Notes under the pieces: generated by a model
What the model saw: only the letters and a program-made list of their open reading frames with translations
What the model was told of the DNA's origin: nothing
Database searches by the model: none
Shown: one piece after another, positions 5,082 to 31,631 of the stretch
Layout: each line of letters opens with the position of its first letter
Position numbering within the stretch: the first letter of the stretch is position 1
Translations under genes and position numbers: made by a program
NCBI GenBank assembly: GCA_028870115.1
Contig: JAGWQH010000043.1
Location: 1-33,102 of the forward strand
Direction of reading: 5' to 3'
Origin: Candidatus Methylomirabilota bacterium
GTDB lineage: Bacteria > Methylomirabilota > Methylomirabilia > Methylomirabilales > Methylomirabilaceae
DNA: 33,102 bases

Positions 5082-5789
5082 ATGAAGCGAGCCGATTACG
5101 ATCCCGAAGGGAGCGGGCAGTATTACGCCCTTACAAGCGCCAACCCTGTGAGGAAACGATGGCATCTCAACAAGCTCCGGCTCTTTCATCTGACAGACAT
5201 CTCACCTGAAGATTACGTGATGGATGCGGGCTGTGGTGCGGGAAACCTCATTTCTGAACTGGTCCCGTATTGCCGGGTGGCCGTTGGTTGCGACATCAAC
5301 CACGCCCGCTTAGCCTTCGCCGCCCGAAGGGGCCGCGGCACTTACATTCAGGCCGATCTCACGCAACTCCCCTTTGCTGACCACACATTCGAAACGATCT
5401 TCTTTATGGAGGTTATTGAGCATCTTGAGCAGCGGATCATCCCGCAAGTCTTGAGCCAACTCTATCGGATCCTCAAGCCAAAAGGACAACTTCTTATCAC
5501 AACCCCCAACTACCGAAGCTTGTGGTTCGTCATAGAGCTCCTGGCCGACAACCTCCGTCTGGCGCCTGAGATGGCCGGCGGAGAGCACATTTCCAAATAC
5601 CATCGTCGAACGTTGGCAAAGACCCTTACTCAGGCGCGCTTCACCATTCGGAGAATGGGGACCTTTAATCACCTCTCCCCCTTTGTCGCCATCTTCTCCG
5701 ACCGATGGGCGGAGCGCCTTTACCGCTGGGAGCTGAAGAAGAGCCGGGCCGGCGGAAATCTCCTCTACGCCCTGTGCGAAAAATCCTGA
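5082..5789 (+). CDS. Class I SAM-dependent methyltransferase
   Basis: The 235-residue protein has the Rossmann methyltransferase core. Motif I is VMDAGCGAGNL (about residues 46-56), the acidic motif II is VAVGCDIN, motif III is YIQADLTQLPF, and the post-motif region is FFMEVIEHL followed by ILKPKGQLLITTPNY. This is the Methyltransf_11 pattern common in EPS loci, where such enzymes methylate sugars or lipid carriers. It is the only plus-strand gene in the first 12.9 kb. Its ATG is 16 nt from the outermost start of the divergent FemAB-like gene, and no ribosome site is visible. Its 3' end overlaps the convergent GT2 gene by 25 nt (5765-5789). The substrate is unknown. Confidence 0.9.
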   Translation: MKRADYDPEGSGQYYALTSANPVRKRWHLNKLRLFHLTDISPEDYVMDAGCGAGNLISELVPYCRVAVGCDINHARLAFAARRGRGTYIQADLTQLPFADHTFETIFFMEVIEHLEQRIIPQVLSQLYRILKPKGQLLITTPNYRSLWFVIELLADNLRLAPEMAGGEHISKYHRRTLAKTLTQARFTIRRMGTFNHLSPFVAIFSDRWAERLYRWELKKSRAGGNLLYALCEKS

Positions 5790-6538
5790 TCGCCCCGATA
5801 CCTGCCCTGTCGATCCCGGCGATAGATCGTGATCAGATCCCGAAAAGCCTGGTACGCGTTCTTGACGAGCTTGACGCTGCTCACTTCCCCACTGTAGGCG
5901 AACGTCACCGGAATTTCCGTAATCCGGAGTCCAAGGCGTTGCGCGATCAACAGCACCTCCACGTCAAACGCGAAACCGCAAATGTCGACCCGCGAGAAGA
6001 TCGCCTTCGCCGCCTCCGCTGTAAATCCCTTAAGGCCACATTGGGTGTCCACCGCGCGAATTCCCAGTATAGCGCGGACCACCCAATTGAAGAATCGGCT
6101 CATCAGGTGTCGCTTGTACACGTAGCGGAAATAGCGAGGGTGAAGGTAAAACAGGGACGCGGCGTGAACCCGAGAACCAACAATAACATCATGGGACTTC
6201 ATCCACAGCGGCAGAAGGAAGGCCTCGATCCCCTCGATTGGGTAGGCCAAGTCAGCGTCTGTATAGAGGATGAACCGGCCTTTCGCCTCCAGGACCCCCT
6301 TCTTGATCGAATATCCTTTCCCCATGTTTCGACTATTGCCCAGTACCTTCAGTTCCGGATAGCGTAGCGAGAAGTCGCCAAGAGTCGCCTCAGTGTGATC
6401 GCTGCTCCCATCGTCGACGATGATAATCTCGTGGGAATACGGCTGCTTTTCAAAGTAGGCCTGAAGCCGACGGAGGCTTTCCTTAATCTCCCTCACACTA
6501 TTGTAGGAGGCGATCACCAACGAAATGTCCGGGCGCAT
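5765..6538 (-). CDS. Family 2 glycosyltransferase, dolichyl/polyprenyl-phosphate glycosyltransferase-like (no membrane helices)
   Basis: The 257-residue GT-A enzyme starts MRPDISLVIASYN and carries IIIVDDGSSDHT (D42, D43) and the metal-binding YTDADLAYP (D94, D96). The CGLKGF block near residues 165-170 and the later GFAFDVEVL are hallmarks of the DPM1/ALG5 group, which transfers a hexose from a nucleotide to a polyprenyl phosphate. It lacks the C-terminal membrane helices seen in the GT2 at 10.4-11.4 kb. The ATG at 6538 lies 9 nt after the stop of the GT-C gene at 6.5-8.6 kb, so the lipid-linked sugar could be the donor for that enzyme (inference from family behaviour and adjacency). Its 3' end overlaps the convergent methyltransferase. 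Confidence 0.9.
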   Translation of the reverse strand: MRPDISLVIASYNSVREIKESLRRLQAYFEKQPYSHEIIIVDDGSSDHTEATLGDFSLRYPELKVLGNSRNMGKGYSIKKGVLEAKGRFILYTDADLAYPIEGIEAFLLPLWMKSHDVIVGSRVHAASLFYLHPRYFRYVYKRHLMSRFFNWVVRAILGIRAVDTQCGLKGFTAEAAKAIFSRVDICGFAFDVEVLLIAQRLGLRITEIPVTFAYSGEVSSVKLVKNAYQAFRDLITIYRRDRQGRYRGDQDFSHRA

Positions 6539-6547
6539 GTCTGGTTC

Positions 6548-8575
6548 CTATCCCTTCTCCGGTCGCCACCTAACCTCGTAGACATCCAGGTCGAAATCAG
6601 GGTAGCCCCCTGCCACCTCGAACGCAATCAAGTTGAGTCCCCTGTTCAGAGAAGGACCCACCTCGTACACCACCTCAGTACTCCTCGTCACTGGGGTGAG
6701 ATACGATCGAGACGCGATGGGTTCAATTCGCCGCCCGTTCAGATACAGCGCCTCGATTCCGTGCCGGCTCGCCTTCAATGGAAGATCACGGAGAGCCAGG
6801 ATGAGATGAAGGTCATCAATCATACCGTTCGCCTCAATCCAGCCCCGGCAGTAGATAGGAGAGCCTCCCCAGGAGCTGAGAGGCGTTTGAGCGTATACTG
6901 ATCGATCGGGCAGGTTTCGAGCTGGCAGGGGTTTAGCAGTCCATGTAGAGTCATCGAACGTCCTATCGAACCAGCCAGGGCCTGGTCGATCCGAATTCTT
7001 CCAGAAACTGGACCGGATTGACGGTTGGTATTTCACAAGCCAGAATGGCCCAATCTTGCGGAATGCTCCTTCAATGCTGCCGGGCCAGTCCCGCTCTCTC
7101 AGGACCGCGTAATGAGCCTCAGTTCCCCCTTTGGTCTCTCCTCGCCGAAGGATATGGAAAAAGAAGCCCCTGTCCTCAAGCAGGTCCTCAAAGGCCGACC
7201 CATGGATTTGTCCGTGAAAGGCAGCTTCGTCCAAAGGGGAGTCGGCAAGGATCGCCTCCGTAAGAGCCCGTTTGTACTTCATAGCCATGATCTCCAAAAA
7301 GCCTCTTTCCTGAATAAACCACAACGGGTCTGGAAACCGAAGCATAATCTCCGTGGGCAGGCGCAGAGATCCGACACTGAGGACCTCCCGGCGGAGGGCA
7401 GCCAGAAAGAAGATCTGGGTAAAGACGATTAGGCCGACGACGAGGGCTACCGACCACGAGGCGACCCGCTGGACAAGACGGGTGAATCCTTTCCGGGCAG
7501 TTGCCTGAAGGGCCCGGTCCGTGACAATCCCAATGACCAGAAACTGGGCAGGATAGAGCAGATCAAAGTAGTACCACGCCAAAGCCTGCTTTTTCTGGAT
7601 GAGCACGGAGACGGACACGACAATCCACAGCAGCAAGAGCCCTTCAGCTCTTGGAACCGCCCCATCTTGCCGCCAGCGGCGTATCGTGGAAAGAAACACC
7701 CAGAAGAAACCGCCAACGAAGAGGGCCAGCTCCAGGCGTTGAACAGGCGTGAAAAAGGGAGCCCGGGCTGATGAGAAGCCCTGAGCCATGCGTACCGCGA
7801 TGTTGAAAGGACCCTGAAGAGCCTTCCATGGCATCTCAAGCTGAGATTCCCGAGCCACCACTTGGCTATCCTGTCCGATAAATCGAAAGGCGTCAGGGAA
7901 GGCTTGAAAGTCTCGCTGCGCCTCAAAAACGAAATAGGGCACAAAAAGGATCACAACGAAAGCCAGGCCAGCGAGGGCATGACGCCATGCGAATGACTGC
8001 CTGAACAGCAGGAGTGAGAGGAGAAGGACGAGGCCTAAGGCGAGAGCGCTCAGATGAATCTGAAGGAGACAACCGAGCGCCATGATGGCTACGGTCAACC
8101 CCCACGCCCTTCCTGCGATAAGATAGGAGTAGAGAGCGTAAAAGAAGATCACTGTGAAAAAGGGGATAAGCCCGGGATTCCAGAGCCCCTTAGAACTCAC
8201 GACAGCCATGGGGAAGACACCGTACAGGGCAGCCGCCACAAGGCCTGCAGTTGGACTGAAGAATTCACGTCCTATTCGCCAGGCGAGATAGACGGAGACG
8301 AGGTTCAAAAGGTTGATGAAAAGGACGACCACCCACGGGTCGCTGCTCAACCAAAATGGCGCAGCGATCACGTAGTAGTAAAGCGGACCGAGGGCATAGA
8401 GATTGCGGGCAATGGGGCCGACGATCGGAAAATTCTGTCCTTTGGCGATCTTGAGGGCCTCAGTGGCATCCCGAGCTTGATCCATCATAAACCAGCCTAG
8501 GTCGAGGCCCGTGAGGCGAACCCCAGCCGACAAGGCAAGGATGCCCACCAGTAGCCACTTCTCCCACTTCGCCAT
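6548..8575 (-). CDS. GT39/ArnT-like membrane glycosyltransferase with C-terminal beta-sandwich domain
   Basis: The 675-residue protein begins MAKWEKWLLVGILALSAGVR. Its first exterior loop carries MMDQARDATEA (D32, D36), the position of the catalytic Asp in GT-C mannosyl/aminoarabinose transferases that take sugar from a polyprenyl phosphate. About eleven hydrophobic segments follow, up to roughly residue 430. After a soluble segment, the last 150 or so residues read WFDRTFDDSTW, YCRGWIEANG, IEALYLNGRRI and LNLIAFEVAGG, a pattern of galactose-binding-like jelly rolls. This is an unusual addition for the family. The ATG at 8575 was chosen because the longer frame overlaps the dehydratase gene with unrelated sequence. 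It probably acts on the outer face of the inner membrane. Confidence 0.87.
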   Translation of the reverse strand: MAKWEKWLLVGILALSAGVRLTGLDLGWFMMDQARDATEALKIAKGQNFPIVGPIARNLYALGPLYYYVIAAPFWLSSDPWVVVLFINLLNLVSVYLAWRIGREFFSPTAGLVAAALYGVFPMAVVSSKGLWNPGLIPFFTVIFFYALYSYLIAGRAWGLTVAIMALGCLLQIHLSALALGLVLLLSLLLFRQSFAWRHALAGLAFVVILFVPYFVFEAQRDFQAFPDAFRFIGQDSQVVARESQLEMPWKALQGPFNIAVRMAQGFSSARAPFFTPVQRLELALFVGGFFWVFLSTIRRWRQDGAVPRAEGLLLLWIVVSVSVLIQKKQALAWYYFDLLYPAQFLVIGIVTDRALQATARKGFTRLVQRVASWSVALVVGLIVFTQIFFLAALRREVLSVGSLRLPTEIMLRFPDPLWFIQERGFLEIMAMKYKRALTEAILADSPLDEAAFHGQIHGSAFEDLLEDRGFFFHILRRGETKGGTEAHYAVLRERDWPGSIEGAFRKIGPFWLVKYQPSIRSSFWKNSDRPGPGWFDRTFDDSTWTAKPLPARNLPDRSVYAQTPLSSWGGSPIYCRGWIEANGMIDDLHLILALRDLPLKASRHGIEALYLNGRRIEPIASRSYLTPVTRSTEVVYEVGPSLNRGLNLIAFEVAGGYPDFDLDVYEVRWRPEKG

Positions 8576-8601
8576 ATCCCGAATTACACCGAGACCCTGA
8601 C

Positions 8602-9624
8602 TCAATACGTGGACGTCTTCCCGGCAGGATCCGTGACGGTCACGGAGCGCATCCAGAGCCGCTGCCGCCACCACTCTTGATGCTCGGCATACCAGCGGAT
8701 AGTCCGCTCGAGGCCGACCTCCACATCGGTCTCCGCCTTCCAGCCCAGGACCTGAGCGGCTTTTGCTGTCGAGCCGAGATGTTGTCTGACCTGGCCCGGC
8801 CGGTCCTGGGCAAAGCACAGGAGGGAGCGAGGCTTTCCCAGCATCTGTAAGATTCGCTCGGCCACGGTCAGAACCGGAGTATCGCTCCCGGTCCCCAGGT
8901 TGATCGTCTCCCCGGCAACAGTCTGCAGATCCGCATGCAGCGCCAGATCCAGGGCGCGGCAGAGATCTTCTACGTACACCCAGTCCCTGGAGAAGCTCCC
9001 ATCCCCATGGATGATTAACGGTTCATCCATGAGGGCGTTCGTGATGAAGCGGGGGATCGCTTTCTCCAGGTGTTGATGAGGCCCGTAGGTATTGAAGGGT
9101 CGCAGGATTACGCAGGGGAGACCGTACGACCTATAGTACGAGTAGACCAATCGGTCGGCGCCGGCCTTGGCGCTGGCATAGGGGGTGGTCGGGTTGAGAG
9201 GATGATCCTCGGTCATGGGGGTAGAGGTCGCCGTCCCATACACCTCGGAGCTCGAGATATGGACAAACCGCTCGATCTGCCGCTTCAGGACCGCGCTCAC
9301 GACGGCCTGGGTACCCAGCACGTCAGTCTCAAAGAAGGTGACGGTATCAGAGAGCGAACGCGGAACATGGGTCTCCGCTGCGAAGTGAACGACAGCATCC
9401 GCCTCGGCCACCAGCTCCTCTACGATAGCCCCATTTCGGATGTTGCCGTAGCAGAACCGAAATCGGGGATGGTTGTGAAAGGCTTCCGGGAAGTTGTCCA
9501 GACTCCCCGCATACGTGAGGGCGTCCAGGACGATCAGGCGATACTCTGGATAGTGCTCCATGAGATGGGCGGCGAACCGGCTCCCGATGAAGCCGGCGCC
9601 TCCCGTGATTAAGATCCTTTTCAC
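8602..9624 (-). CDS. NDP-sugar 4,6-dehydratase (extended SDR; RmlB/LegB-like)
   Basis: The 340-residue enzyme has the NAD-binding GGAGFIG (residues 8-14), LDALTYAGSLDN resembling dTDP-glucose dehydratases, HFAAETHVPRS, SSSEVYG (124-130) and the YxxxK pair Y149/K153. It would convert a nucleotide-hexose to the 4-keto-6-deoxy sugar, the usual substrate of DegT aminotransferases such as the one at 1.3-2.5 kb. RmlB proteins have T-D-E at the active site; here the middle Asp is Ser, as in GDP-mannose and LegB-type UDP-GlcNAc dehydratases, so nucleotide specificity is open. The start is GTG at 9624, supported by AAGGAG 7 nt upstream. It lies 26 nt after the WbqC-like gene. Confidence 0.9.
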   Translation of the reverse strand: MKRILITGGAGFIGSRFAAHLMEHYPEYRLIVLDALTYAGSLDNFPEAFHNHPRFRFCYGNIRNGAIVEELVAEADAVVHFAAETHVPRSLSDTVTFFETDVLGTQAVVSAVLKRQIERFVHISSSEVYGTATSTPMTEDHPLNPTTPYASAKAGADRLVYSYYRSYGLPCVILRPFNTYGPHQHLEKAIPRFITNALMDEPLIIHGDGSFSRDWVYVEDLCRALDLALHADLQTVAGETINLGTGSDTPVLTVAERILQMLGKPRSLLCFAQDRPGQVRQHLGSTAKAAQVLGWKAETDVEVGLERTIRWYAEHQEWWRQRLWMRSVTVTDPAGKTSTY

Positions 9625-9650: not shown

Positions 9651-10382
9651 TCAGGGCAGCGCGACCGCCCTCTGGCCGGTCAAGATGTCGAGACTGTCAG
9701 GCCCATGGTTAAACAGGAGATCGATCACCGAAAGGTACGGAATAAACGAACCATACAACTGATAGTACGAGGGATGCCGGTAATCGTGAAACTCAAGGGT
9801 AATCCCTAACGACTCCAGGCGGGACGGATCGATGTACGACCGACCTACGGCTCCCTCCAAAAAGCGTTGCGCCCCTAATCGCCGGCACAGGAAGGCGACT
9901 CGTCCCGCGGGATCTTTCCCCCCTGGCTGCGCACTACGGTAGTCGCGCTCCAACCCCTCCTGTGACGAGATGAGGATCTTCGTCTCAATCCCCAGGACGC
10001 CGAGCAGATAGAAGATGATCTCAAGATCGAGGTCCGCCAGATATCGCCACGAACGCTCGTACAGCGTCGCAAAGAAGGCCTCATGTGCCTGAAAATAGGG
10101 AGCACGGGCGTAGCACTGGCGGATCTGGTTCCAATGGCCGCGCCCCCAATGGCTCTGGCTGCTGATCTCGACCTCGCGAATGCTCTTACTGCACAACCCG
10201 CGGTTCACCACCGGAACAGTGAGCCAGCCCCATCCATGAGGAGTCTTGATCTTGTTTCGGTTTCGCCAACTGTGCCGGCTATAGGGCAGATCGTCGTACA
10301 GGATGAAGACATCACAGCAGGCTATCTGATCGAAAAAGCCCAACCAAGGCAGATAGCCCGGTTGTACCGCCCCTAGCCTCAT
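9651..10382 (-). CDS. WbqC-like family protein
   Basis: The 243-residue protein matches the WbqC family: it begins MRLGAVQPGYLPWLGFFDQI and continues with FILYDDLPYSRHSWRNRNKI, KTPHGWGWLTVPV and, later, YKQLY-type YYQLYGSFIPYLSVIDLLF plus NHGPDS near the C-terminus. WbqC proteins occur in O-antigen and surface-glycan loci, often beside sugar aminotransferases, but their reaction is not firmly established; a role in acylating an amino sugar has been considered. The ATG at 10382 overlaps the stop of the upstream GT2 gene by 4 nt (ATGA). An open frame continues upstream to 10871 but lies inside the GT2 gene and shows no homology, so it was rejected as the start. Confidence 0.88.
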   Translation of the reverse strand: MRLGAVQPGYLPWLGFFDQIACCDVFILYDDLPYSRHSWRNRNKIKTPHGWGWLTVPVVNRGLCSKSIREVEISSQSHWGRGHWNQIRQCYARAPYFQAHEAFFATLYERSWRYLADLDLEIIFYLLGVLGIETKILISSQEGLERDYRSAQPGGKDPAGRVAFLCRRLGAQRFLEGAVGRSYIDPSRLESLGITLEFHDYRHPSYYQLYGSFIPYLSVIDLLFNHGPDSLDILTGQRAVALP

Positions 10383-11362
10383 CCCAACCCCGCCTTTGCC
10401 CCAGCAGCACCCCCGATTTCCTCCTCGACCACGTAAAAGGGCAACGCTTGAGCGGCGTGATAGCCCCGGACGACGAATTCGCCGAGAAGACCAAGGATCG
10501 TAAACTGAACACCGCCCAGCACGAGGAAAAGAATGGCGACCAGGACGAAAGGGCCGACGACCATTCCGAAGGCGAGCCGACCCAGAAGGGCGCCACAAGC
10601 CACGAGACCACCCACAAGGGCGCCCAGGATACCCGCGCATCCAATGATGCGAAAGGAGCCGGCTGAAACGACGAGCAGAAGCTCGAAGGTCAAGGCGAGC
10701 AGCCGAAAGGGCGTATACTTCGACTGCCCGCGCCGCCGCGCATGGTTGGCAATAGGCACTTCTCCAACCGCATGGGCCGCGGTGACAAGCCGCACCGCCA
10801 AAAATCGCCGCAAGTCCCCGGACCGATTGATCTCCTGGGCCACCCGCCGCGTCATCGCGCGAAACCCACAACCGTGATCGTGGAGGGTCGCGCCCGTGGA
10901 CAAGCTCACCAACTTGTTCATTACGGCGGAACCGATCCGCCGAGCGATTCCTAAGTCCTGCCGATCAGCCCGCCATCCGGTGACCAGATCGCACCCCTCA
11001 CCGATCTTCGAAATGAATCTGGGCACTTCTTCGGGATCGGACTGAAGATCGGCGTCCATCAAAATGACAATGTCGCCGCGACTTCGCTCGATCCCGGCCG
11101 ACAGCGCGGCGTGTTGGCCAAAGTTCCTGACAAACCTCACGGCCCGGACGCGAGGATCGCCGGCAGCCAGTTCGCGAAGTCGCTGAGAGCTCCCGTCCGT
11201 ACACCCATCGTCAACGAAAATGATTTCATAGGAGGATCCCAGCCCGTCCAGCGTCTTGGTGAGCCGCTCGTACAGCTCCGAGAGGTTCGCTTCCTCGTTG
11301 AAGACAGGAACGACGACGGAAAGTGCGATCGCGCTGCCTATGGACTTCGACACCGCGAACAC
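10379..11362 (-). CDS. Polyprenyl-phosphate glycosyltransferase, GT2 family with two C-terminal membrane helices (GtrB/ArnC-like)
   Basis: The 327-residue protein has the DPM1-like GT2 core: LSVVVPVFNEEANL, IIFVDDGCTDGS, VRNFGQHAALSAGI and the metal-binding ILMDADLQSDPEE. These are followed by the HGCGFRAM block and by two hydrophobic hairpin segments at about residues 228-260 and 265-295. Members transfer a sugar from a nucleotide to undecaprenyl phosphate at the membrane, producing the donor for GT-C enzymes. The start is GTG at 11362; a second GTG three codons later is possible. The gene follows a well-formed promoter (11429-11458) and is the first of the minus-strand operon running to the left window edge. 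It overlaps the WbqC-like gene by 4 nt. Confidence 0.9.
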   Translation of the reverse strand: MFAVSKSIGSAIALSVVVPVFNEEANLSELYERLTKTLDGLGSSYEIIFVDDGCTDGSSQRLRELAAGDPRVRAVRFVRNFGQHAALSAGIERSRGDIVILMDADLQSDPEEVPRFISKIGEGCDLVTGWRADRQDLGIARRIGSAVMNKLVSLSTGATLHDHGCGFRAMTRRVAQEINRSGDLRRFLAVRLVTAAHAVGEVPIANHARRRGQSKYTPFRLLALTFELLLVVSAGSFRIIGCAGILGALVGGLVACGALLGRLAFGMVVGPFVLVAILFLVLGGVQFTILGLLGEFVVRGYHAAQALPFYVVEEEIGGAAGAKAGLG

Positions 11363-11473: not shown

Positions 11474-12628
11474 TCAACGTCGAACGGCGCCGGCGGTCCG
11501 CCAGACCTGCACTCCGCCCTGGTAGGCGGCGATCCCGAGGTCGCGGAGGCCGTCGCCGTCCCGATCGCCGACAACGATGGTCTCCGGTCGCCCGACTTTG
11601 GCCGGGAGACCCACCACCTGCACCTCCGTGAAGTCTCCCTTTCCATCCCCGAAGAAGACCTGAATCCGGCCATCATAGCTCCCGGCAATGAGATCCAAGC
11701 GTCCATCACCGTTGAAATCGGCAAGCGCCACGTCCAGGTATAACCCGGAGCGGGGTAGACCTTTTGTCGCCAAGGGCCGCCAGCTTCCCTTCCCGTCGCC
11801 GAGGAAGACATGAATCCCCTCTGGGTCCAAGCAGCCGACAACGAGATCCGGGTAGCCGTCTTGGTCCAGATCGGCCACGGCGATGCCCCAGCAGTTGGCC
11901 CGGGGGAGGCCCTCGGCCGCCTTCCTCCAATGCCCCTTCCCATCCCCCAGCCACACTCCCAGCTCATACGAGACAGTTCCAACGAGATCGAGATGGCCGT
12001 CTTTGTTCACATCGACAAACGTGAGTTTGTGGCCACCTTCCCGGGTAGGAAGCCCCTGGGAGGTCTCGACCCACCCCCCCTTACCGTCCTGCAGGAAGAC
12101 TCGAATCCCGCCTGAAAGATGGCCGATGATGGCCAAGTCCGGCCGGCCATCGTGGTTAACGTCGCCTATCGCCACGTCCTCACCCTCAAAGGGAAGCTGC
12201 GCGGCAAGCCTCCAGTTCCCTTTCCCGTCGCCCAGGAAGACCTCCCCGCCAGAGGTGACAAGGTCCAGCCGGCCATCGCCGTTGATATCGGCAAACCTAA
12301 CCCCCCACCGGCCGCTGAAATGGCGAAGCAGCCCGGTCGAAGCCTCCCGCCAGCTTTCCCCTTCACGCAGGAAGACATGCGCCCCGTCCCCCTTTCGCGC
12401 GACCGCCGCCAGATCGGGCCTGCCGTCGCCATTCACATCGCCGAAGGCGAGCCCCGTCCAGCCGCCCTCAGAGCCCTGAGGTTCCGAGTCGGGAAGCCCC
12501 GACGATGCCTTAATAAACCGGAGAGAAGGGATCTCTTCCGCATGAAGCGGCAACGCAAAAAGCACAAGACTCACCAGTGCGCAGCCGATCCGCCACCTTA
12601 TTGTTGCAGCTCGCTTCATCATCGTCAT
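11474..12628 (-). CDS. Secreted FG-GAP/VCBS repeat protein (seven-bladed propeller)
   Basis: The 384-residue protein has a Sec signal peptide: a basic start, hydrophobic core CALVSLVLFAL and likely cleavage after PLHA (residue 30). It is followed by seven calcium-binding sites of the form D-x-N/D-x-D-G-x-x-D-L, near residues 64, 114, 156, 206, 253, 304 and 355. The regular spacing of about 50 residues and the count of seven predict one closed integrin-type beta-propeller with no other domain. The proteins bind ligands or partners rather than catalyse. Starts at 12628, 12622 or 12619 are all possible, and none has a convincing ribosome site. It is divergent from the Asp-box propeller gene at 12.9 kb, with repeats between them. 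Confidence 0.9.
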   Translation of the reverse strand: MTMMKRAATIRWRIGCALVSLVLFALPLHAEEIPSLRFIKASSGLPDSEPQGSEGGWTGLAFGDVNGDGRPDLAAVARKGDGAHVFLREGESWREASTGLLRHFSGRWGVRFADINGDGRLDLVTSGGEVFLGDGKGNWRLAAQLPFEGEDVAIGDVNHDGRPDLAIIGHLSGGIRVFLQDGKGGWVETSQGLPTREGGHKLTFVDVNKDGHLDLVGTVSYELGVWLGDGKGHWRKAAEGLPRANCWGIAVADLDQDGYPDLVVGCLDPEGIHVFLGDGKGSWRPLATKGLPRSGLYLDVALADFNGDGRLDLIAGSYDGRIQVFFGDGKGDFTEVQVVGLPAKVGRPETIVVGDRDGDGLRDLGIAAYQGGVQVWRTAGAVRR

Positions 12629-12927: not shown

Positions 12928-14262
12928 ATGAGACACCGTCTGCTCGGATTGGCTTGCATCCTGATCCTCATCGCCGGATCCGGCTTCACGTTTCAGCGCC
13001 CCCGCCCGGAGGACTCTTCGATCCAGGCGAGGGATCCGGTCATGGCAGCCGATCCAAACGGCCCCCTCTACCTCGCCTGGGTAGAGACGAGAGAAAAGAG
13101 CCAAGTCCTTATGTTCACCCGCTCGACCGACGAAGGGAAGACCTGGGAGCCGGATCGCCGGCTCGATCTGGGGGTCCCGGAAGGGGCCCAGGCGTCAGGT
13201 CCACAGCTTGCCGCCGACGGCAAAGGGCATCTTTTGCTCGTGTGGCGGAACCGGGTGAAGGGGGAACTGAAGGCCGTCCTCGTCGTCACCTCACCAGACT
13301 TCGGGAAGAGCTGGTCGGAACCGAAGCCGCTCAACACGGGTGACGGGTACCAGCCCCAACTCCGCCTCGACGACAAGGGACAGGCTGTCGTCGTCTGGTA
13401 CGAGCACGAGCGCGGGCTCTCAGTCCGGCAGATTAAAGGGACCCGCGTCCTCGTCGTCACCTCACCAGACTTCGGGAAGAGCTGGTCCGCCCCGGTTGCG
13501 CTGGACGACGGCTCAGGAATGGCCACCATGCCTCAGCTCGCTACCGCCGGTCCCGGCCGGCTCGTCGTCGCCTGGCAGGAGGTCAAGGAGAGGCGGACTC
13601 CCCTCTTCGTCGCAACGACCGCCGACGGCGGAAAGAACTGGCAGACCACAAAGCTCGACCGACCCGGAATAGTCGCCGGAGCCCCGACGCTGGCCGCCGA
13701 CCAGAAGGGCCACATTATGATCAGTTGGGCGGAGACCGTCGAACTCCCAGACATTTTCACCGTTGTCTCGTCCGATTTCGGGAAGAGCTGGTCGAAGGAG
13801 ATTCGACCACGAACGACAACGCCGGGCGAGACACCGGCTATAAATCCCCAACTGGCCCTCTCATCGACGGGAAAGGCGGCGCTGGTCTGGGAGGACCAGC
13901 GGGCCGGGGCTTCAGACATCTACCTCACCGTGTCGTCCGATTTCGGGAAGAGCTGGTCGAAGGAGATTCGACTCGACACCGGAGAGCCGGGCGGCACCCC
14001 ATCCAGGTCCCCCCATCTGGTCCTCGACCCCACCGGCCGGATCGCCGCCGTCTGGGAAGAAAAGGCGGGTGGAGCGTCCCGACTCCAGGCATCTGTCTCC
14101 CCTGATTTCGCAAAGAGCTGGCAGCCCCAGCCCATTCCGGAACCGGCAGCCGTCTCTGCCACACGGCCTCACCTCCTGCTCGCTAAAGGCCGGACCTTCC
14201 TCGTTACCGAGATCAGCCAACCGGGAAAGCAGAGGATCGTGGCGACCCTTCTTGCTCCCTAG
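12928..14262 (+). CDS. Secreted Asp-box (BNR/sialidase-like) propeller protein
   Basis: The 444-residue protein begins MRHRLLGLACILILIAGSGF, a signal peptide with cleavage probably near residue 20-24. Seven Asp boxes (S/T-x-D-x-G-x-x-W) start at residues 66, 122, 179, 231, 281, 336 and 391, spaced about 50-57 residues apart, again suggesting a propeller. True sialidases also carry an Arg triad and a Tyr/Glu pair that I cannot assign here, so binding or an unknown hydrolase is as likely as sialidase activity. The start is set by the strong AAGGAGGAG site 4-12 nt before the ATG; an open frame reaching 12802 runs through repeat sequence. Several boxes are duplicated almost exactly at DNA level. 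Confidence 0.88.
   Translation: MRHRLLGLACILILIAGSGFTFQRPRPEDSSIQARDPVMAADPNGPLYLAWVETREKSQVLMFTRSTDEGKTWEPDRRLDLGVPEGAQASGPQLAADGKGHLLLVWRNRVKGELKAVLVVTSPDFGKSWSEPKPLNTGDGYQPQLRLDDKGQAVVVWYEHERGLSVRQIKGTRVLVVTSPDFGKSWSAPVALDDGSGMATMPQLATAGPGRLVVAWQEVKERRTPLFVATTADGGKNWQTTKLDRPGIVAGAPTLAADQKGHIMISWAETVELPDIFTVVSSDFGKSWSKEIRPRTTTPGETPAINPQLALSSTGKAALVWEDQRAGASDIYLTVSSDFGKSWSKEIRLDTGEPGGTPSRSPHLVLDPTGRIAAVWEEKAGGASRLQASVSPDFAKSWQPQPIPEPAAVSATRPHLLLAKGRTFLVTEISQPGKQRIVATLLAP
13276..13487 (+). repeat. Exact 41-nt duplicate within the Asp-box gene
   Basis: Positions 13276-13316 and 13447-13487 are identical over 41 nt and encode VLVVTSPDFGKSW. The units are 171 bp (57 codons) apart, one propeller blade. 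Confidence 0.9.
13768..13972 (+). repeat. Exact 40-nt duplicate within the Asp-box gene
   Basis: Positions 13768-13807 and 13933-13972 are identical over 40 nt and encode SSDFGKSWSKEIR. The units are 165 bp (55 codons) apart, one propeller blade, indicating recent duplication or conversion. Confidence 0.9.
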
Positions 14263-14649: not shown

Positions 14650-15543
14650 TTACCGTGTGCGGTCGCCGTAACTGCTGAACATGTAACCGCTGAACACGAA
14701 GTTGGTCCCCTTGATCTGCGTCTTCATGAAGGCAATGAAATCCTCGTCATCGCCTCCCGTATAGATTGACGTGACCACGATCCGACCATCTCGTCCATTC
14801 ACCTGGGTAGTGTAGGCTTCGAGAAGGGCACGGGTCACGCACGTGCAGGGCACGGGTACCGTGATAATCAGGTTCTCGTCAGCGTCGAAAACGAAGAGGT
14901 CCACCCCTGCCGAGAACTTGGTGGGATCGTTGACCGGGGAGTCTGCCAAAGCAATAAGGTCGTCACCCAGTCGGTTCTGTGTCTCTGTGGCGGACTTTTT
15001 CTTCGGGCAGAACAGATACAGCTCGTTGTCAACACCGTTCGCATCGAAGTAAGCCCCAGTCCAGGTGTCTGCAAAGACGTTCCATATCCCGGCACCGTCT
15101 TGCTGGTTGATGTGGTGGAACCGGGTGAGCGTTCCCGCCACTAGGTCGATCACGATCGTCTCAGCGGACAGCCCAGGGGTGGCGGCGCCAGCGTTCGCAT
15201 TGATAAGGATGCCTCCCTCACCGGTGGCGGGCTCCAATACTTTATTCACGCTAAAAAAGTCCACATCAGCCGTCGTGAGTGGCGGGTGAAGGTCCCTGAT
15301 GAATTTACAGTCTTGATCGTAGAACCGGATGTTGGGCACCGCCCCGGGGCCAAACGGGTTCTCAACGACCAACAGTGTGATGGTATTTGCATCGGCCCGG
15401 TAGTAAGGAACGTAGAGCTTGGAATCGAGGTCAAACACATCCCACGGGGCAGCCGCTGCCGACCGTACGCCCAAGGCGCCGAACCCCACAAGCAGGGCCA
15501 GCGAGAGAACAACTCCGAACTTCCATTTCATCGTCTTCTTCAC
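14650..15543 (-). CDS. Secreted protein of unknown function
   Basis: This 297-residue protein is not recognised. It has a clear Sec signal peptide (MKKTMKWKFGVVLSLALLVG, with cleavage probably near SAAAA, residues 29-33). The mature part is acidic and beta-rich, with segments such as KLYVPYYRAD, ITLLVVENPFG, NIRFYDQDCKFIRD and LFVFDADENLIITVPVPC. It has four Cys, including a CTC pair. There is no membrane anchor, PEP-CTERM or LPXTG tail. The GTG at 15543 was chosen because AAGGAG stands 6 nt before it; an ATG four codons later lacks that. The gene stands alone, with its own promoter (15671-15700), a leader of about 120 nt and a strong terminator, a layout expected of an abundant exported protein. 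Confidence 0.82.
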   Translation of the reverse strand: MKKTMKWKFGVVLSLALLVGFGALGVRSAAAAPWDVFDLDSKLYVPYYRADANTITLLVVENPFGPGAVPNIRFYDQDCKFIRDLHPPLTTADVDFFSVNKVLEPATGEGGILINANAGAATPGLSAETIVIDLVAGTLTRFHHINQQDGAGIWNVFADTWTGAYFDANGVDNELYLFCPKKKSATETQNRLGDDLIALADSPVNDPTKFSAGVDLFVFDADENLIITVPVPCTCVTRALLEAYTTQVNGRDGRIVVTSIYTGGDDEDFIAFMKTQIKGTNFVFSGYMFSSYGDRTR

Positions 15544-15708: not shown

Positions 15709-16194
15709 TCACCGGCCTTTAGTCTGATACCGCCGGTACCAAGCTCCATCAACCCTGACCCACGGCTCCTCCAGGACGTGCTTCACAACCCCACCCTTTC
15801 GAGACTCGACGGCGAGGAGCTGGATCTCAGTCTCGACCGTGACCCGCCCCTCCTCCCCATCCACTGTCACCTTCTCGATCCGGTATGAAAGATAGCGGAG
15901 GGGGCTTTCTCGCTTCGTATCTTTTGGGGGGACCTGCCACCGATCCTTGGGAGCGAGCAGGCTCCAGATGGTGGGCCAGTCGTTGTGAAGTTGCGCCTCC
16001 CAATAGGCGGTGGCCCGTTCCCGAAGGGCCGCCTCGCCGTTCGACTCCTCGGCCCAAGTCGGGGAGATCACAATAAAGAGAAGGAGGGCGATTGTCCCGA
16101 TTCGGGCGAGCCCGAAACCGCTGCCGTCGGTTCGCGCAGGCGTTGGGCGTGTCGCCCAACCGTTCTTATGCAAGGCGCACCCCACGATACGCAT
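15709..16194 (-). CDS. Small exported protein, possibly NTF2-like
   Basis: The 161-residue protein has a long basic N-region followed by a hydrophobic segment (about residues 31-47) ending TWAEE, consistent with a signal peptide or anchor. The mature part reads ALRERATAYWEAQLHNDW and WSLLAPKDRWQ, then VTVDGEEGRVTVETEIQLL and WVRVDGAWYRRY. This helix-then-curved-sheet pattern recalls SnoaL/NTF2-like proteins, but the match is by eye only. The ATG at 16194 overlaps the 3' end of the Tat-exported gene by 29 nt and has no ribosome site, so translation probably depends on the upstream gene. The two are likely functional partners. Confidence 0.72.
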   Translation of the reverse strand: MRIVGCALHKNGWATRPTPARTDGSGFGLARIGTIALLLFIVISPTWAEESNGEAALRERATAYWEAQLHNDWPTIWSLLAPKDRWQVPPKDTKRESPLRYLSYRIEKVTVDGEEGRVTVETEIQLLAVESRKGGVVKHVLEEPWVRVDGAWYRRYQTKGR

Positions 16195-17248
16195 GACAGA
16201 GATCGCCGATGAAAAGCGAATAGAGCGACCGATCCCGGACCTTCACCATCTTCAGATCGAGGGCCGCCACGGCCGAGAAGATCCGGTAGAGGGCGGCCAG
16301 ACCTTCCTCCATCCGAGCCTTTTGGGCCGAGGTCGGAGTGAAAATGGCGTGCCGCTTCGCATAATGGAGGACCTCGAAGGCATGGCCTGTAAACTTCAGC
16401 TTCGCTTCCAGCCGGTTCGCCTCCTCCCACGGGCCTGACGGCAACCCCGCATAGAAGCGATCGATCAGATCGACGTCCGCCCACAGCCGATAGACCATGA
16501 GATCGAGTTGCTCCTGAAGGGTTCGGCGGTACGCCCCGGCATAGCCGTGTCTGGCCGCCGCGACCAGGCTGTAGGCCGAATGGGTCCCACCGCAGGTGAA
16601 GCGGTGGATGGGGAACTTCTGCGGAAGCGGCCGATTCCCTGCGGCGTAAGGCCCCATCCCCCGAGTCGCCTCCTCGATGGTCTCAAACCCGAAGGCGACG
16701 AGGTCCTTCAGCCGAACCTTCTGACCATAGGCATTCGTCCACTCCTCGGCTCGAAGCTCGGAGAAGGCGATGAGCGACCAAGCAAGGTCGTCCTTGTCAA
16801 AACTCCTCGGATCGAAGGTGAGGAGCGCTTTCGCCCCTTCTGCCAGGTCGTTCAGGTGATAGCGACCGCCCTCGACCCGTATATCCTTTTCGCGTGGCAC
16901 CCCAGCCTCCAGGAGGGTCTTCAAGGCCACACTGGTGTGGCCCTCGACCTCGCGGGGCACATAGAGATACGGCGTTCCGTTTATGTCCTTCGCCCTGACG
17001 TCGTTCGTCAGGAGATAATCCACCGCGCTTACATCACCCAGGGAGAAGCCACGACCCAACGCTCGGACTCCGTGCATCACAAGCCACGGCTCTTGGCGAT
17101 CGGCCGCATACCGTTCGATGAGCCTTCTGGCCGCTTCTTGAGGGCTTTCTCCAAAAACAGGGTTCGGGAGAGCCAGAGCGATCGCCCCAACCCCCATTGC
17201 CCTCAGGAAGGTCCGCCGGCTGATAACGGCACAACAGCACTGACCCAT
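16166..17248 (-). CDS. Tat-exported protein of unknown function
   Basis: The 360-residue protein carries a twin-arginine signal, SRRTFLRAMGVGAIALAL, within the first 30 residues, so it should be exported folded, possibly with a cofactor. The mature part is helix-rich, with HGVRALGRGF, HLNDLAEGAKALL and the conserved-looking CGGTHSAYSLVAAARHGY. The repeated helix pairs and the CGGTHS/HGVRAL segments suggest an alpha/alpha-toroid such as in polysaccharide-active or terpenoid-cyclase-like folds, but I recognise no family. The ATG at 17248 was chosen because GGGAGA stands about 5 nt before it; GTG 17266 and ATG 17260 also lie in frame. It is preceded by a long leader with its own promoter. Confidence 0.8.
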   Translation of the reverse strand: MGQCCCAVISRRTFLRAMGVGAIALALPNPVFGESPQEAARRLIERYAADRQEPWLVMHGVRALGRGFSLGDVSAVDYLLTNDVRAKDINGTPYLYVPREVEGHTSVALKTLLEAGVPREKDIRVEGGRYHLNDLAEGAKALLTFDPRSFDKDDLAWSLIAFSELRAEEWTNAYGQKVRLKDLVAFGFETIEEATRGMGPYAAGNRPLPQKFPIHRFTCGGTHSAYSLVAAARHGYAGAYRRTLQEQLDLMVYRLWADVDLIDRFYAGLPSGPWEEANRLEAKLKFTGHAFEVLHYAKRHAIFTPTSAQKARMEEGLAALYRIFSAVAALDLKMVKVRDRSLYSLFIGDLCHAYRGVRLA

Positions 17249-17326
17249 CGCTTCTCCCATATTCACTCAGTCGCCGGCGAACAATGACGAGTCGCTAACT
17301 GCCAGCCAGATAGCTCGTGTTGAACG

Positions 17327-17571: not shown

Positions 17572-19485
17572 TCACGACTTCCGGTCGGGGAGCTTGGCAA
17601 GGGCCTGGCGAACCTGCTCGCCCTCGGGGGCCGTTGGATTCAAGCGGAGGTAGTCTTCGAGGATACCGATCGCCTCTGGAACGCGGCCATCCGCTTCGAG
17701 AAGAGCAGCCAACGTCAAGAACGGCTCGGCCCAGCGCGGGTTAAGTTCCAGGGCCTTCCGATACAGGGCGATCGCCTCCTGCTTACGTCCAGCCCGCAGG
17801 AAGACGGCTCCCGATTCCACATGAAGCTTTGCGTTCGTCGGCGCCCGCTGCAGGAGTTCCTGATATCTGGCCAGCGCGAGGTCGTAGCGCCCCTGTCTCG
17901 CATAGGCCCTTGCCAAGGAGAGCCTGGCCTGGAGCCCATCCGGGTTGAGTTCCAAGGCTTTCTCCAGGGTCGAGACCGCCTCCTCGATGCGTCCTGCGTC
18001 CAGATATGCCGACCCGAGGACTCTGAAAGCAGCGTAGTCCGGCTGCAGCTCCACACCCCGTCTGGCCTCCTCGATAGCCAACGCCGTCTGGTCATGATTG
18101 AGGTACGCGATCGCCAGGTTGAGGTGGGGCCGCGATTTCTGCGGGGATTTCGTCGCCGCGTCGAGCCAGAGGGCGCGCTCGTCCTGCCAGACGGTGTTCC
18201 GCTGAATGGTCCCCAGCCCCCAGGCCATCGCCACGATCCCGACGATGACACCGACCTGGACCTTTCCATACTTTTCGGCCAGCCATCCACTCAACCAGCC
18301 GACAAAGAGGGCGAAGCCGACGCCTGCGAGATAGACCCGATGCTCGGCCGCCACATCAAGGAGCGGCACGATACTCGAGGACGGTATGGGAGCGATCAGG
18401 AACCAGCCGATGGCGAAGGCGAGCATCGGGGCTTTTCGAAGAGTGAGGACGCCGGCAACGGTAAGCCCAATCAGGATGAGGGCGCCGAGCACTGTCTGCA
18501 CGTCCAACCAACCTGGGGCCGGCGGGATATCGGGATCGATGTTGAGGCCAACGGGAAAGAGGAACAGGCGAAGGTAATAAAAAGGGATCACCTGAAGCTG
18601 GGTCAGGAAGTACTGAAGCCGTGGGAGTTGCTGACCATGGTGGAGTCTTGGCCGCGACAATGTGCCATCCGGGTGGGGTTCGACAACCATTCCCCAGGAG
18701 TAGAAGAGAAAGATCGCAGCCGCGAGGCCCACCCCGACGAGAAGGGGCCAGTTCCTCCGGGCCCACCCCCTGATCCCCTCTTCCCGGTGCTGAAAAACCA
18801 GCGAGTACAGGAGCAGCATCACCGGCAAGGTCGCCGCCTCCTGTTTCGAACCAAAGGCCAGAATACCGGAAATAGCGGAAAGCAGGTACCAGCCCCACTT
18901 CCGCCGTTGGGAGGCGACACGTTCCCCTTCACCGAACGCCAACACACTCCCAAGGTAGAAAGCGGCGCACAGCACCGATGAGCGACCGGAAATAAAGACC
19001 ACAGCTTCCGTAAAGATCGGATGGATCGCCTGGGTGAGGGCCGCCGTCGTGGCGACCAGGCCGACCATTTGATCCCCCGGCGTGAGAGCTTCAAGCAGTT
19101 GTCTGGCCAGGAGGAAGGTACACAGCACGACAACCAGATGGAGGAGAAGATTCACGATATGATACCCTGTGGGGTCTACACCGCCGAGAGCGTGGTTCAC
19201 GGCAAAACTGGCGAAGAGGACGGAACGGCTGAGGAAGGCCCCGATGCTTGTGAAATGGAAGGCAATTTTCGGCAGGTCGCGCATGTTCTGGATCACGCGG
19301 ATACGCGGGTCGGCGACAATGGTATCGAAATCGTCAAAGACGAAGGGGACGGAGAAGGTGTTTGAATAGACCACGACCCCAGCCAGGAGGGCGATCCCGA
19401 CGGGGAGGAGCCATCCGAACGGATAGTGACTCGCCTCTACCCTTTCTACCCTCTTTGTCTTCTTTCCGGCCACCCGATCTTTCAT
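17572..19485 (-). CDS. TMTC-like membrane O-glycosyltransferase with C-terminal TPRs
   Basis: The 637-residue protein combines about ten membrane segments (residues 24-445) with five TPR units from about residue 451 to the end (for example LGSAYLDAGRIEEAVSTLEK and ALYRKALELNPRWAEP). The first loop, VYSNTFSVPFVFDDFDTI, holds the paired Asp D51/D52. It matches the VFDD signature of animal TMTC proteins, which O-mannosylate proteins using dolichyl-phosphate mannose and carry TPRs in the same order. In bacteria such proteins are usually annotated only as TPR proteins. The ATG at 19485 has only a weak AAGG nearby. A dispersed repeat begins 5 nt upstream, so expression probably depends on read-through from the glycan operon. 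Confidence 0.85.
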   Translation of the reverse strand: MKDRVAGKKTKRVERVEASHYPFGWLLPVGIALLAGVVVYSNTFSVPFVFDDFDTIVADPRIRVIQNMRDLPKIAFHFTSIGAFLSRSVLFASFAVNHALGGVDPTGYHIVNLLLHLVVVLCTFLLARQLLEALTPGDQMVGLVATTAALTQAIHPIFTEAVVFISGRSSVLCAAFYLGSVLAFGEGERVASQRRKWGWYLLSAISGILAFGSKQEAATLPVMLLLYSLVFQHREEGIRGWARRNWPLLVGVGLAAAIFLFYSWGMVVEPHPDGTLSRPRLHHGQQLPRLQYFLTQLQVIPFYYLRLFLFPVGLNIDPDIPPAPGWLDVQTVLGALILIGLTVAGVLTLRKAPMLAFAIGWFLIAPIPSSSIVPLLDVAAEHRVYLAGVGFALFVGWLSGWLAEKYGKVQVGVIVGIVAMAWGLGTIQRNTVWQDERALWLDAATKSPQKSRPHLNLAIAYLNHDQTALAIEEARRGVELQPDYAAFRVLGSAYLDAGRIEEAVSTLEKALELNPDGLQARLSLARAYARQGRYDLALARYQELLQRAPTNAKLHVESGAVFLRAGRKQEAIALYRKALELNPRWAEPFLTLAALLEADGRVPEAIGILEDYLRLNPTAPEGEQVRQALAKLPDRKS

Positions 19486-19490
19486 GCCTT

Positions 19491-19697
19491 GTGTAGTTTA
19501 TCCAATGCTTGTTTCGCTTCTTGACACATTCCGTTCACCCTGAGCCTGTCGAAGGGAGAAGTATTTTAATGGGTTCCGTTCATGGGTTCGACAAACCTGT
19601 CCTGAGCCCGCCGTTCTCCTTCGACAAGCTCAGGACGAACGGCTGGGATGTTGAAGCCTGCGCTGAGCCCTGTCGAAGCGGGCTCACCACGAACGGA
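19491..19697. repeat. Cluster of dispersed CTGAGCCTGTCGAAGG repeats, partly coding
   Basis: Arms are visible at 19531-19555, 19617-19642 and about 19661-19696. The left flank 19491-19530 matches 14391-14421. The cluster fills the gap between the TMTC-like gene and the GT4 gene and supplies the last 43 codons of the GT4 gene. Confidence 0.85.
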
Positions 19698-20852
19698 TTG
19701 TAAAGGTATGTGTGAGACACTACAGTAGATGTCGAGGATCCGCTGAAAGAGCGCCGGCCTGCGATACTCCCCCATCACCTTCTCGAAGGCGTTCCCTGTT
19801 AAGGAAGCCTTCAGATCCTGATCCACGAGAACCTCGAACAGCTTCGCCGCCAGATCCCCCGGATCCAATTTCTCCAGTAAGAGCCCCTCCAGCCGGTCCT
19901 GGATGAGGTCTGTGACCCCACCCGCCCGAAACGCGACGCACGGGACGCGATGCGCCATCGCCTCAAGGAGTCGCGTCGGCAGGCCCTCCCAGGCGCCGAG
20001 GGCGACGAAGGCGTCAGCGATGGCGTAAAAGCCATGCAAGATCGCGCGATCCACCACAGGATCGAAGGCCCCGGCGAAGACCACCTCCGACCGCAGCGTC
20101 GGGTCAATCCTCCCGAGCAGCACGTGTTGATACCGGGGGTCGACGGGGCCGACAAAAAGAAGTTTCACGGCGGGGATTCGTTGCCTCAGAAGCGGCAACG
20201 CGTCCAGGAGCACGTCCGGGTGCTTCTCGGGGATGATCCTTCCTGTGAAGAGGACGACCCGTGATCCATCGAGTTGATACCGGCTCCGGATTCCCCGTTC
20301 CACCCCCGGTTCCCGTTCTCTTGGCTCCACACCGGTCGGTGCGACGACGTGCACCTTCTCCGGTCTCACCTGAAAGAACGATATGAGCCGCTCACGCTCG
20401 CTCGCTGAAAGGGCGATCACCGCGTCGGCCCGCCGGAACACGACCGCCGCCAAGGGCTTGGAGAGTCTCAATGCGATCTGCGTGCTCCGGGACGAGACGG
20501 TCGGATACAGACCGTGAGAGGTCACGACAAGCCTTGCCGTGCGCTTCAGCAAAGACCCGATGATGCTCGGCCACAGCCAGGGGGAGTGGACGTGGATGAG
20601 ATCGTAGCGATGGCGGGTGAGATACCTTGCCAGGCCCACCGGAAACGGATTCCGAAACAGCACCGGAAACGCGTTGAACCGCTTCGCCGGGAAGCGGTTG
20701 ATCTCGTCGGCGGAGAGCGCCGTCTCCATATCGGTCGTCAACACCTCGACGGTGTGGCCGGCACGCGCCAAATCCCTGACCAAGTTGTACACGTGCAGTT
20801 CGGTGCCCCCGATGTGGGGAAGATAGACGTGGCAGATCTGGGCGACCTTCAT
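19566..20852 (-). CDS. GT4-family glycosyltransferase with a repeat-derived C-terminal tail
   Basis: The 428-residue GT-B enzyme starts MKVAQICHVYLPHIGGTELH, with the glycine-rich loop and a His that contact the acceptor and donor. It has VAPTGVEP and FTGRIIPEKHPDVLLDALP at the start of the C-terminal lobe, and WEGLPTRLLEAMAHRVPCVAF with the E-x7-E nucleotide-sugar site. The likely product is an alpha-linked hexose added to a lipid-linked glycan in the cytoplasm. The ATG at 20852 overlaps the upstream GT4 stop by 4 nt (ATGA). The family would end near the ILDIY segment, but the frame continues for about 50 residues. The final 43, including AVRPELVEG, are read from the dispersed repeat, so the native stop was probably displaced. 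Confidence 0.9.
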   Translation of the reverse strand: MKVAQICHVYLPHIGGTELHVYNLVRDLARAGHTVEVLTTDMETALSADEINRFPAKRFNAFPVLFRNPFPVGLARYLTRHRYDLIHVHSPWLWPSIIGSLLKRTARLVVTSHGLYPTVSSRSTQIALRLSKPLAAVVFRRADAVIALSASERERLISFFQVRPEKVHVVAPTGVEPREREPGVERGIRSRYQLDGSRVVLFTGRIIPEKHPDVLLDALPLLRQRIPAVKLLFVGPVDPRYQHVLLGRIDPTLRSEVVFAGAFDPVVDRAILHGFYAIADAFVALGAWEGLPTRLLEAMAHRVPCVAFRAGGVTDLIQDRLEGLLLEKLDPGDLAAKLFEVLVDQDLKASLTGNAFEKVMGEYRRPALFQRILDIYCSVSHIPLQSVRGEPASTGLSAGFNIPAVRPELVEGERRAQDRFVEPMNGTH

Positions 20853-30200: not shown

Positions 30201-30420
30201 CCGGCGGTTCATGCCAGCTTCCGCCAAGCGTCGAAAGAAGTTCGTCATTGAGATCCGTAAGCTGTTGATGCTCCCAGTACCCCTTGGCATTATCTTGGCT
30301 GGGCGGCATGAGATGCGCCTCAGGCCCCAGGTACACCCCCAGCAGGTTCAGGATCCTCATAATGAGTGAGGTTCCGCTCCGGTGCATGCCGAGCACGCAC
30401 ATGATCTTTGATTGGTGCAT
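27214..30420 (-). CDS. Sulfotransferase, coiled coil, beta domain and GT2 glycosyltransferase in one polypeptide
   Basis: The 1068-residue protein starts with a sulfotransferase domain (about 1-250). Its PAPS loop is VLGMHRSGTSLI, with ICLRNPVDVARSLHRR as the 3'-phosphate site. Residues 283-380 form a coiled coil containing three exact 14-residue repeats (VAERDQAVQALSTQ). Residues 460-585 look like a beta-sandwich. A linker (620-650) repeats ERPLAPVRIP. Residues 661-900 are a GT2 domain, with VSVVIPTKNG, IVVVDSGSADET, FTTQDAIP and FAEDLEYGIRCL, then a helical C-terminus. It could transfer a sugar and sulfate the glycan. AAGGAG lies 10 nt before the ATG. As the first gene of the 30.4-17.6 kb operon it may set its composition. 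Confidence 0.9.
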   Translation of the reverse strand: MHQSKIMCVLGMHRSGTSLIMRILNLLGVYLGPEAHLMPPSQDNAKGYWEHQQLTDLNDELLSTLGGSWHEPPAFLPGWENMPALAELRQRTRALIRRDFGGAPLWGWKDPRTCLTLPFWQRLLPPMAYVICLRNPVDVARSLHRRDGFPFEKGVNLWLAHVQSALDHTAGAARLFLIYEDMMERWPEELARVARFLGRPELAEQAEIRAAVKAFVDDALHHHRTVLIDAMDESALAFPAKALYLALRLYVRLSQEARGIRGDEDRALQEAIDRFSLYASTAQAETQSLRTQGPELEQRLQTLEAQVAERDQAVQALSTQVAERDQAVQALSTQVAERDQAVQALSTQVAEQRHQAQQLQTAKAALEAEAGRLRHHLEMLLNSLSWRLTAPFRRIHAGLYALGEGPRGLWRKGARGFQVLRELWYRTAYTVHPFRFMTPTEVEHSGAHSLEEAVRWIPAVRIGHQAKDAFLVHPPSRVTYRLTVPPRAVFRACVALLPEVWGRNPSGVEFTVSVSSRDNGRSLTRKRWSHPTRFPHHRRWLQLRMPLHRVADREVELTLSASVAPGASADFASAIWGDLMVLSRKPLGEIRRLAMESLRQFGVWGVLSRVMRVVSEETALTERPLAPVRIPRATLAKPEERPLAPVRIPIPRLVRPVEIPAKVSVVIPTKNGVAEDFESCLRAITQQKGLRELEIVVVDSGSADETVTIAKSYGAHIFSIPPEQFNHGGTRNYGGERASGELVVFTTQDAIPASDDLYYEMARMLLSDLALAAVSARQIPRSDADLFACWQNWIHFQYVGLDTGISHIDDLGRIDDMPPQDIRRAAGLDDVCSMHRKSIWDQLQYRQMAFAEDLEYGIRCLKAGHKIGFLGDRAVCHSHNRSAFYHLSKYYVDTITQLGFFKNADPLKWQLMGIDTIDQLLSCAKDVYGTLNAFGRSVSRSALYEPQAFSEQLRDFFVAYRQGGERLAVGEVTLDRLFSRLDGMMEFQTPSGNPIWDTVEGAIKNYITSYLSARYSSLSAEDMLDFAYKIYAMVVGADVGDYYAGMVQNGITSDNAEKINEMISYGIK
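29377..29502 (-). repeat. Three tandem 42-bp repeats in the coiled-coil region
   Basis: Three adjacent 42-bp units encode residues 307-348 as VAERDQAVQALSTQ three times. They are almost identical at DNA level, differing for example at the GCG/GCC-type third base of one unit. A fourth, diverged start (VAEQRHQ) follows. The unit is two heptads, so copy-number change would keep both frame and coiled-coil phase. Confidence 0.93.
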
Positions 30421-31611: not shown

Positions 31612-31631
31612 CGAAGAAAGGAGCACACCTG

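Follow-up and report, generated by a model that had tools for sequence, protein, structure and literature searches.

We analysed a stretch of 33,102 nucleotides (the window) in which a minus-strand gene at 17572-19485, the target, encodes a protein that, from its sequence, is best regarded as a divergent member of a bacterial family of TMTC-like glycosyltransferases. In relatives, genes of this family are coupled to genes for exported proteins and for a polyprenyl-phosphate-sugar synthase. The window holds the same set, with the synthase (10379-11362), an Asp-box propeller (12928-14262) and a Tat-signal protein (16166-17266), and its TMTC-like gene is not orthologous to the propeller-coupled clade. 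The best reading of this arrangement is dedicated protein O-glycosylation by the TMTC-like enzyme, which we hold with moderate confidence.

Architecture and family membership of the target

The target frame is open over its full length and encodes 637 amino acids. The gene and its parts are:

17572..19485, minus strand: TMTC-like GT-C glycosyltransferase with C-terminal TPRs (PMT_2 and TPR Pfam matches, family alignment and motif table, AlphaFold2 model)
18124..19416, minus strand: membrane GT-C part, residues 24-454 (PMT_2 at residues 98-264)
19330-19335, minus strand: DD motif, residues 51-52 (invariant across 44 members)
17596..18168, minus strand: TPR array, residues ~440-630 (Pfam TPR, paired helices in the model, TPR proteins as top Foldseek matches)

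The Pfam model PMT_2 scored 26.6 bits against the whole protein and 28.8 bits against the GT-C part, with a cut-off of 26.1, and many TPR models (TPR_16 at 7.6e-27 among them) matched residues ~440-630. The AlphaFold2 model was calculated from an alignment of 32 sequences from the window and the loci and shows a long-helix membrane bundle followed by paired TPR helices (mean pLDDT 88.6, pTM 0.90). Foldseek with the full model returned TPR proteins only among the 50 matches listed, so it is silent on the GT-C fold, neither for nor against. Neither the GT-C sequence alone nor a family profile matched any sequence in the PDB, and Pfam detected no Wzy_C / O-antigen ligase domain (WaaL/PglL oligosaccharyltransferase family) in the target. 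The combination of transferase and TPRs is real. It agrees with the initial annotation, which had described a VFDD first loop (residues 49-52), a multi-pass membrane part and C-terminal TPRs in the order of the animal TMTCs.

A profile check against TMTC models, proposed at the same time, succeeded for the family and not for the target: TMTC_DUF1736 (Pfam) matched 17 of the 38 relatives in the family (best 1.3e-10), and there was no match in the target even at E<=10 nor elsewhere in its genome. The family was found in 27 of 41 relatives, in up to six copies per genome, and its occurrence is therefore not due to chance; the window's genome has one copy. Identity between the target and its relatives is 23-34%. 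With the target protein as single query, a scan of genome contigs gave two distant loci only, and a plasmid tblastn gave TPR regions only.

The TMTC motifs are given in the accessible text of PMC7801869 as DD, SHKSYRP, RxD, KE(T/Q)xxT, DW and ERxxY. We compared these positions in an alignment of the target with its bacterial relatives, which contained no human sequences. Across the 44 members of the motif table, D51, D52 and P156 are invariant; H155, R168, K214 and Y385 are shared by nearly every member. The target has M1 (DD of the first loop, D51 D52), while M2 (..YRP), M3 (RxD), M4 (KE), M5 (DW) and M7 (ERxxY) are each kept in part, as SRS, RxS, KQ, DP and E-H-x-x-Y. It is the sole case of SRS for YRP among the 44 and also carries S170 and Q215. 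Thus the family residues Y86, P88, D170 and E215 are missing, and DD, R87, H155-P156, R168, K214, D317, E381 and Y385 are kept. Judged from the alignment, most TMTC motifs are common to the family and the target has lost several (YRP to SRS, RxD to RxS, KE to KQ).

Exported partners and candidate donor synthase

The genes of interest around the target are:

12928..14262, plus strand: exported Asp-box (BNR) propeller, candidate acceptor (BNR_2 2.7e-25; conserved neighbour of TMTC-like genes)
16166..17266, minus strand: Tat-signal protein, fold of no PDB counterpart, conserved cluster member (homologues in relatives' clusters)
14650..15543, minus strand: exported protein, probable relative of a ~445-aa exported cluster protein (signal-like N-terminus; profile comparison)
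11474..12628, minus strand: exported FG-GAP repeat protein (FG-GAP_3 4e-61)
31581-32645, plus strand: exported protein, unnamed
10379..11362, minus strand: ArnC/GtrB-type polyprenyl-phosphate-sugar synthase, candidate donor maker (ArnC homology, cluster synthase profile)
5765..6538, minus strand: soluble GT2, dolichol-P-mannose synthase-like (3e-13 to 5mlz, best solved relative)
6548..8818, minus strand: second GT-C (PMT_2) glycosyltransferase without TPRs (PMT_2 1.4e-7; 8 predicted membrane segments)

The first five entries confirm that several exported proteins are encoded nearby, as had been noted. To place the propeller among relatives, BNR_2 genes were mapped in 19 genomes. All 11 genomes of the genus (probably Methylomirabilis) that carry an Asp-box propeller gene have it no more than 3.5 kb from a TMTC-like gene, and in eight of these the pair either overlaps or is separated by 40 nt. 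In the window's genome there is a single TMTC-like gene and a single BNR_2 gene; they are separated by 3.3 kb, lie on opposite strands and are non-adjacent. The propeller frame opens at 12802, with a likely start at 12928; propeller N-termini are lipoprotein-like in most relatives and signal-like, without the cysteine, in the window. Co-occurrence with both FG-GAP and Asp-box genes had been suggested as a check. It is strongly conserved for the Asp-box propeller, and FG-GAP was rejected as a conserved partner, as no FG-GAP match was found near the relatives' TMTC-like genes. In G005, a genome assembled as one contig, the propeller-coupled TMTC-like gene (L033:9064-11129) is divided between two ORFs in different frames and may be broken there or carry a sequencing error.

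The clusters of 10 relatives each encode one homologue of the Tat-signal protein, at 36-43% identity, and within the genus the Tat-signal protein and the propeller are distributed over the same 11 genomes. Its model (pLDDT 85.5) had no PDB fold match at E<=0.001. The family (16166-17266 and L023-L031) has invariant TCGGTH, GH and CHAY motifs and looks enzymatic or metal-binding; in Acidobacteriota it was present in three of 396 genomes, with no TMTC-like or propeller neighbours. Profile comparison of 14650-15543 with the ~445-aa exported cluster protein gave P 3.9e-6 over 62 columns only, and the two are probably related. Exosortase H is usually part of the set, with eight genomes having it inside the cluster region, and XrtH with an IPTL-CTERM protein is found in or beside relatives' clusters; the window's genome gave no exosortase match. 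In another family of the class, the locus L086 carries genes for XrtH, a truncated TMTC-like protein, and the Tat, exported and propeller proteins. An ice-binding-like protein that carries Ig-like repeats and ends in an IPTL-CTERM tail is also encoded at this locus, just before an exosortase gene (L086:4182-5651). L084, also from another family of the class, has the Tat, exported and propeller genes together with no TMTC-like gene beside them.

In the tree, joining of the target to the propeller-coupled clade was rejected (AU p 5e-7), and its placement within all 15 genus rows was rejected less firmly (p 0.014). Propellers adjoin at least three other TMTC-like lineages, namely an eight-member clade, L031:2533-4530 and L025:5140-7254. 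Since propellers accompany at least three lineages and the target falls outside the coupled clade, these results suggest that the TMTC-like enzyme of the window was replaced inside a retained gene set.

A second TMTC-like clade (L024:12119, L032:9432, L038 and L039:8634) has a different exported partner. An exported collagen-like gene lies directly upstream of the TMTC-like gene in four of four cases, with GXT- or GPS-rich repeats in three of the four (in the best two, 23 of 29 triplets are GXT and 19 of 20 are GPS):

L024:14144-15310: exported collagen-like protein with GXT or GPS repeats
L032:7093-9364: exported collagen-like protein with GXT or GPS repeats
L039:10712-11791: exported collagen-like protein with GXT or GPS repeats

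In bacteria, collagen-like GXT repeats such as those of BclA are O-glycosylated. Collagen-like genes that are not next to a TMTC-like gene are present as well, both in these genomes and in others, which makes the link one-directional; as general partners, collagen-like genes were rejected, being tied to one TMTC-like clade only.

The window synthase is a full-length ArnC/GtrB homologue (2e-57 to ArnC structure 9hwj, residues 13-316). It was detected by profile and is overlapped by a WbqC frame, listed at 9651-10871, which is over-extended and whose real start is probably near 10380. In relatives, a full-length ArnC/PgfS-like gene with two TM segments (PgfS-like at 146 bits) is coupled to the TMTC-like gene or lies near it, and in seven clusters the end of the TMTC-like gene and the synthase gene overlap by 1 nt, which bears out the guess of a link between transferase and donor maker. 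As in three-component systems, a polyprenyl-phosphate-sugar synthase is thus encoded with a GT-C in the window, and coupled to it in relatives. A profile of the relatives' cluster synthases scored 242 bits against the window synthase and 555-637 bits against the coupled ones, which indicates that the former is probably not their orthologue. A second ArnC-like gene is present elsewhere in the window's genome.

Two polyprenyl-phosphate GT2 genes had been proposed, of which 10379-11362 is certain and 5765-6538 is plausible only, from its sequence. As the latter abuts the GT-C gene 6548-8818, it probably serves that GT-C and not the target, and the two look like a donor-transferase pair of their own. 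The GT2 at 22032-24041 was rejected as a donor maker, being a tandem soluble GT2 and no lipid-P-sugar synthase.

Protein or glycan as the acceptor

In protein O-glycosylation, the ArnC/GtrB-type membrane GT2 (10379-11362 in the window) would load a sugar onto polyprenyl phosphate, and a putative flippase would move the lipid-sugar across the membrane. The inner-membrane TMTC-like GT-C, with its first-loop DD site presumably on the periplasmic face, would use this lipid-sugar to modify Ser/Thr of exported proteins whose genes lie beside its own, holding the acceptor with its TPRs; the diverged target may itself be active. The likeliest acceptor in the window would be the Asp-box propeller. In relatives, one enzyme clade would act on Asp-box lipoproteins, and another on collagen-like GXT/GPS proteins.

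We favour transfer to protein because the GT-C/PMT plus TPR architecture comes with TMTC motifs and TMTC_DUF1736 matches in the family, because propeller proximity (11 of 11), overlap or 40-nt spacing (8 of 11) and the 1-nt synthase overlaps are conserved, and because at least three TMTC-like lineages have a propeller coupled to them and the second clade follows collagen-like genes in all four cases. A further reason comes from the animal TMTCs, which add single mannoses to beta-strands of cadherin domains and are proposed to recruit their acceptors through the TPRs (PMC11292533). Counted against this reading are the L084 propeller set without a TMTC-like gene, the collagen-like genes elsewhere, the polysaccharide glycosyltransferases upstream of the target, the non-adjacent propeller on the other strand, the missing Y86, P88, D170 and E215, the non-orthologous synthase and the second ArnC-like gene. 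S-layer proteomics of one Methylomirabilis species detected no glycans on its S-layer protein (PMC8671808); this also counts against the reading, though that protein is not a cluster protein, and the S-layer has no support as acceptor. Of the initial proposal of bacterial O-glycosylation of secreted propellers, the conserved coupling stands, and we infer the propeller to be the substrate, with L084 and the upstream polysaccharide genes as evidence to the contrary. As a tentative generalisation, in bacterial TMTC-type O-glycosylation each transferase may be genetically coupled to an exported acceptor of its own, either an Asp-box propeller lipoprotein or a collagen-like GXT/GPS protein, and to a polyprenyl-phosphate-sugar synthase, sometimes with an exosortase.

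The main alternative is extracytoplasmic decoration of a glycan, either a surface polysaccharide or a lipid-linked one, by the TMTC-like enzyme in a GtrABC-type or three-component system, with the exported proteins as glycan-binding or assembly partners. Glycan genes dominate the window (GT4, GT2, sulfotransferase-GT2, DegT aminotransferase, epimerase/dehydratase, WbqC and FemAB/GNAT), and the target lies 80 nt downstream of one of them on the same strand:

19566..20852, minus strand: GT4 glycosyltransferase, polysaccharide side, directly upstream of the target (Pfam GT4 1.5e-30)

The C-terminus of this GT4 protein (19566-19700, ..PAVRPELVEGERR..) resembles a translated dispersed repeat. Unusual fusions were also observed at 27214-30420, 24683-27217 and 22032-24041 (sulfotransferase + coiled coil + GT2; GT4 + methyltransferase; tandem GT2-GT2), with a Uma2 gene between two of them.

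Taken alone, the neighbourhood of the target supports both protein O-glycosylation and glycan decoration. Glycan side chains are known to be added by pairs of a synthase and a GT-C, according to the accessible text of PMC11127046, and L084 shows that the propeller can be kept without a TMTC-like gene. However, neither a C-terminal TPR array nor translational coupling to an exported repeat protein defines GtrABC-type systems, no flippase gene was recognised among the annotated cluster neighbours, and two TMTC-like clades with two unrelated exported proteins fit acceptors better than a shared glycan; we judge a glycan acceptor to be the less likely of the two. Another explanation concerns the target only: it could be a diverged copy, inactive or re-purposed as a TPR scaffold in envelope assembly, while its relatives are active. 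Its low identity to relatives, the unique SRS, S170 and Q215, and the lack of a DUF1736 match would fit such a loss, but the full-length frame, the kept residues from DD to Y385, the confident model and the retention of the surrounding gene set make it unlikely. The neighbourhood could finally be incidental, a mobile cell-surface island that gathered unrelated glycan and secretion genes, as the mixed strands, the many unrelated glycosyltransferase genes, the Uma2 gene and the non-conserved FG-GAP gene might suggest. This is very improbable given the proximity in 11 of 11 genomes, the gene overlaps, the coupling to several TMTC-like lineages and the presence of part of the set in L086.

Comparison with known systems

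Protein O-glycosylation of this kind has a partial counterpart in the Pgf system of Streptococcus mutans, where the PgfS synthase works with membrane transferases on adhesins, and the relatives' synthase is PgfS-like. Pgf is a Gram-positive system with transferases other than TMTC-like ones and no TPRs. The loci also resemble exosortase sorting of PEP-CTERM and IPTL-CTERM proteins (XrtH, TIGR04177) through the XrtH and IPTL-CTERM genes of relatives, unlike the window's genome, in which exosortase was not matched. Three-component extracytoplasmic systems (GtrABC, GT136; PMC11127046) share the polyprenyl-P-sugar synthase plus GT-C; in contrast, their acceptor is a glycan, and neither a TPR array nor an exported repeat protein coupled to the system is mentioned in the accessible text of that source.

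The enzyme class is not new, since full-length prokaryotic TMTC homologues are published (PMC7801869). According to the accessible text of that paper, many prokaryotes carry such homologues with a transferase plus TPRs, among them the uncharacterised AMJ42_05695 of Deltaproteobacteria with the same domain order; unlike the present loci, they appear there without a stated gene neighbourhood or acceptor. The initial annotation's view that the arrangement was undescribed holds for the pairing and not for the bacterial homologues. What is new is the pairing: no coupled set involving Asp-box or collagen-like proteins turned up in the literature searched, which had most subscription journals outside its scope. 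Sequences of prokaryotic TMTC homologues have been on record since 2021, and the same literature proposes no acceptor for them. The conserved set of propeller, TMTC-like gene and synthase offers a small testable unit of candidate acceptor, transferase and donor maker. If it acts on protein, it would represent a new way of O-glycosylating folded repeat proteins and a simple bacterial model for the animal TMTC enzymes.

The closest likeness is to TMTC1-4 (CAZy GT105), the protein O-mannosyltransferases of the animal ER. Both have a GT-C/PMT membrane part followed by TPRs and a DD in the first loop, the RxD, K(E), D and E..Y motif positions are kept in part, and 17 of 38 relatives match TMTC_DUF1736. 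Unlike TMTC1-4, the target is bacterial, misses DUF1736 and motif residues, and is encoded near a candidate donor synthase and a candidate acceptor, and its donor would be a bacterial polyprenyl phosphate.
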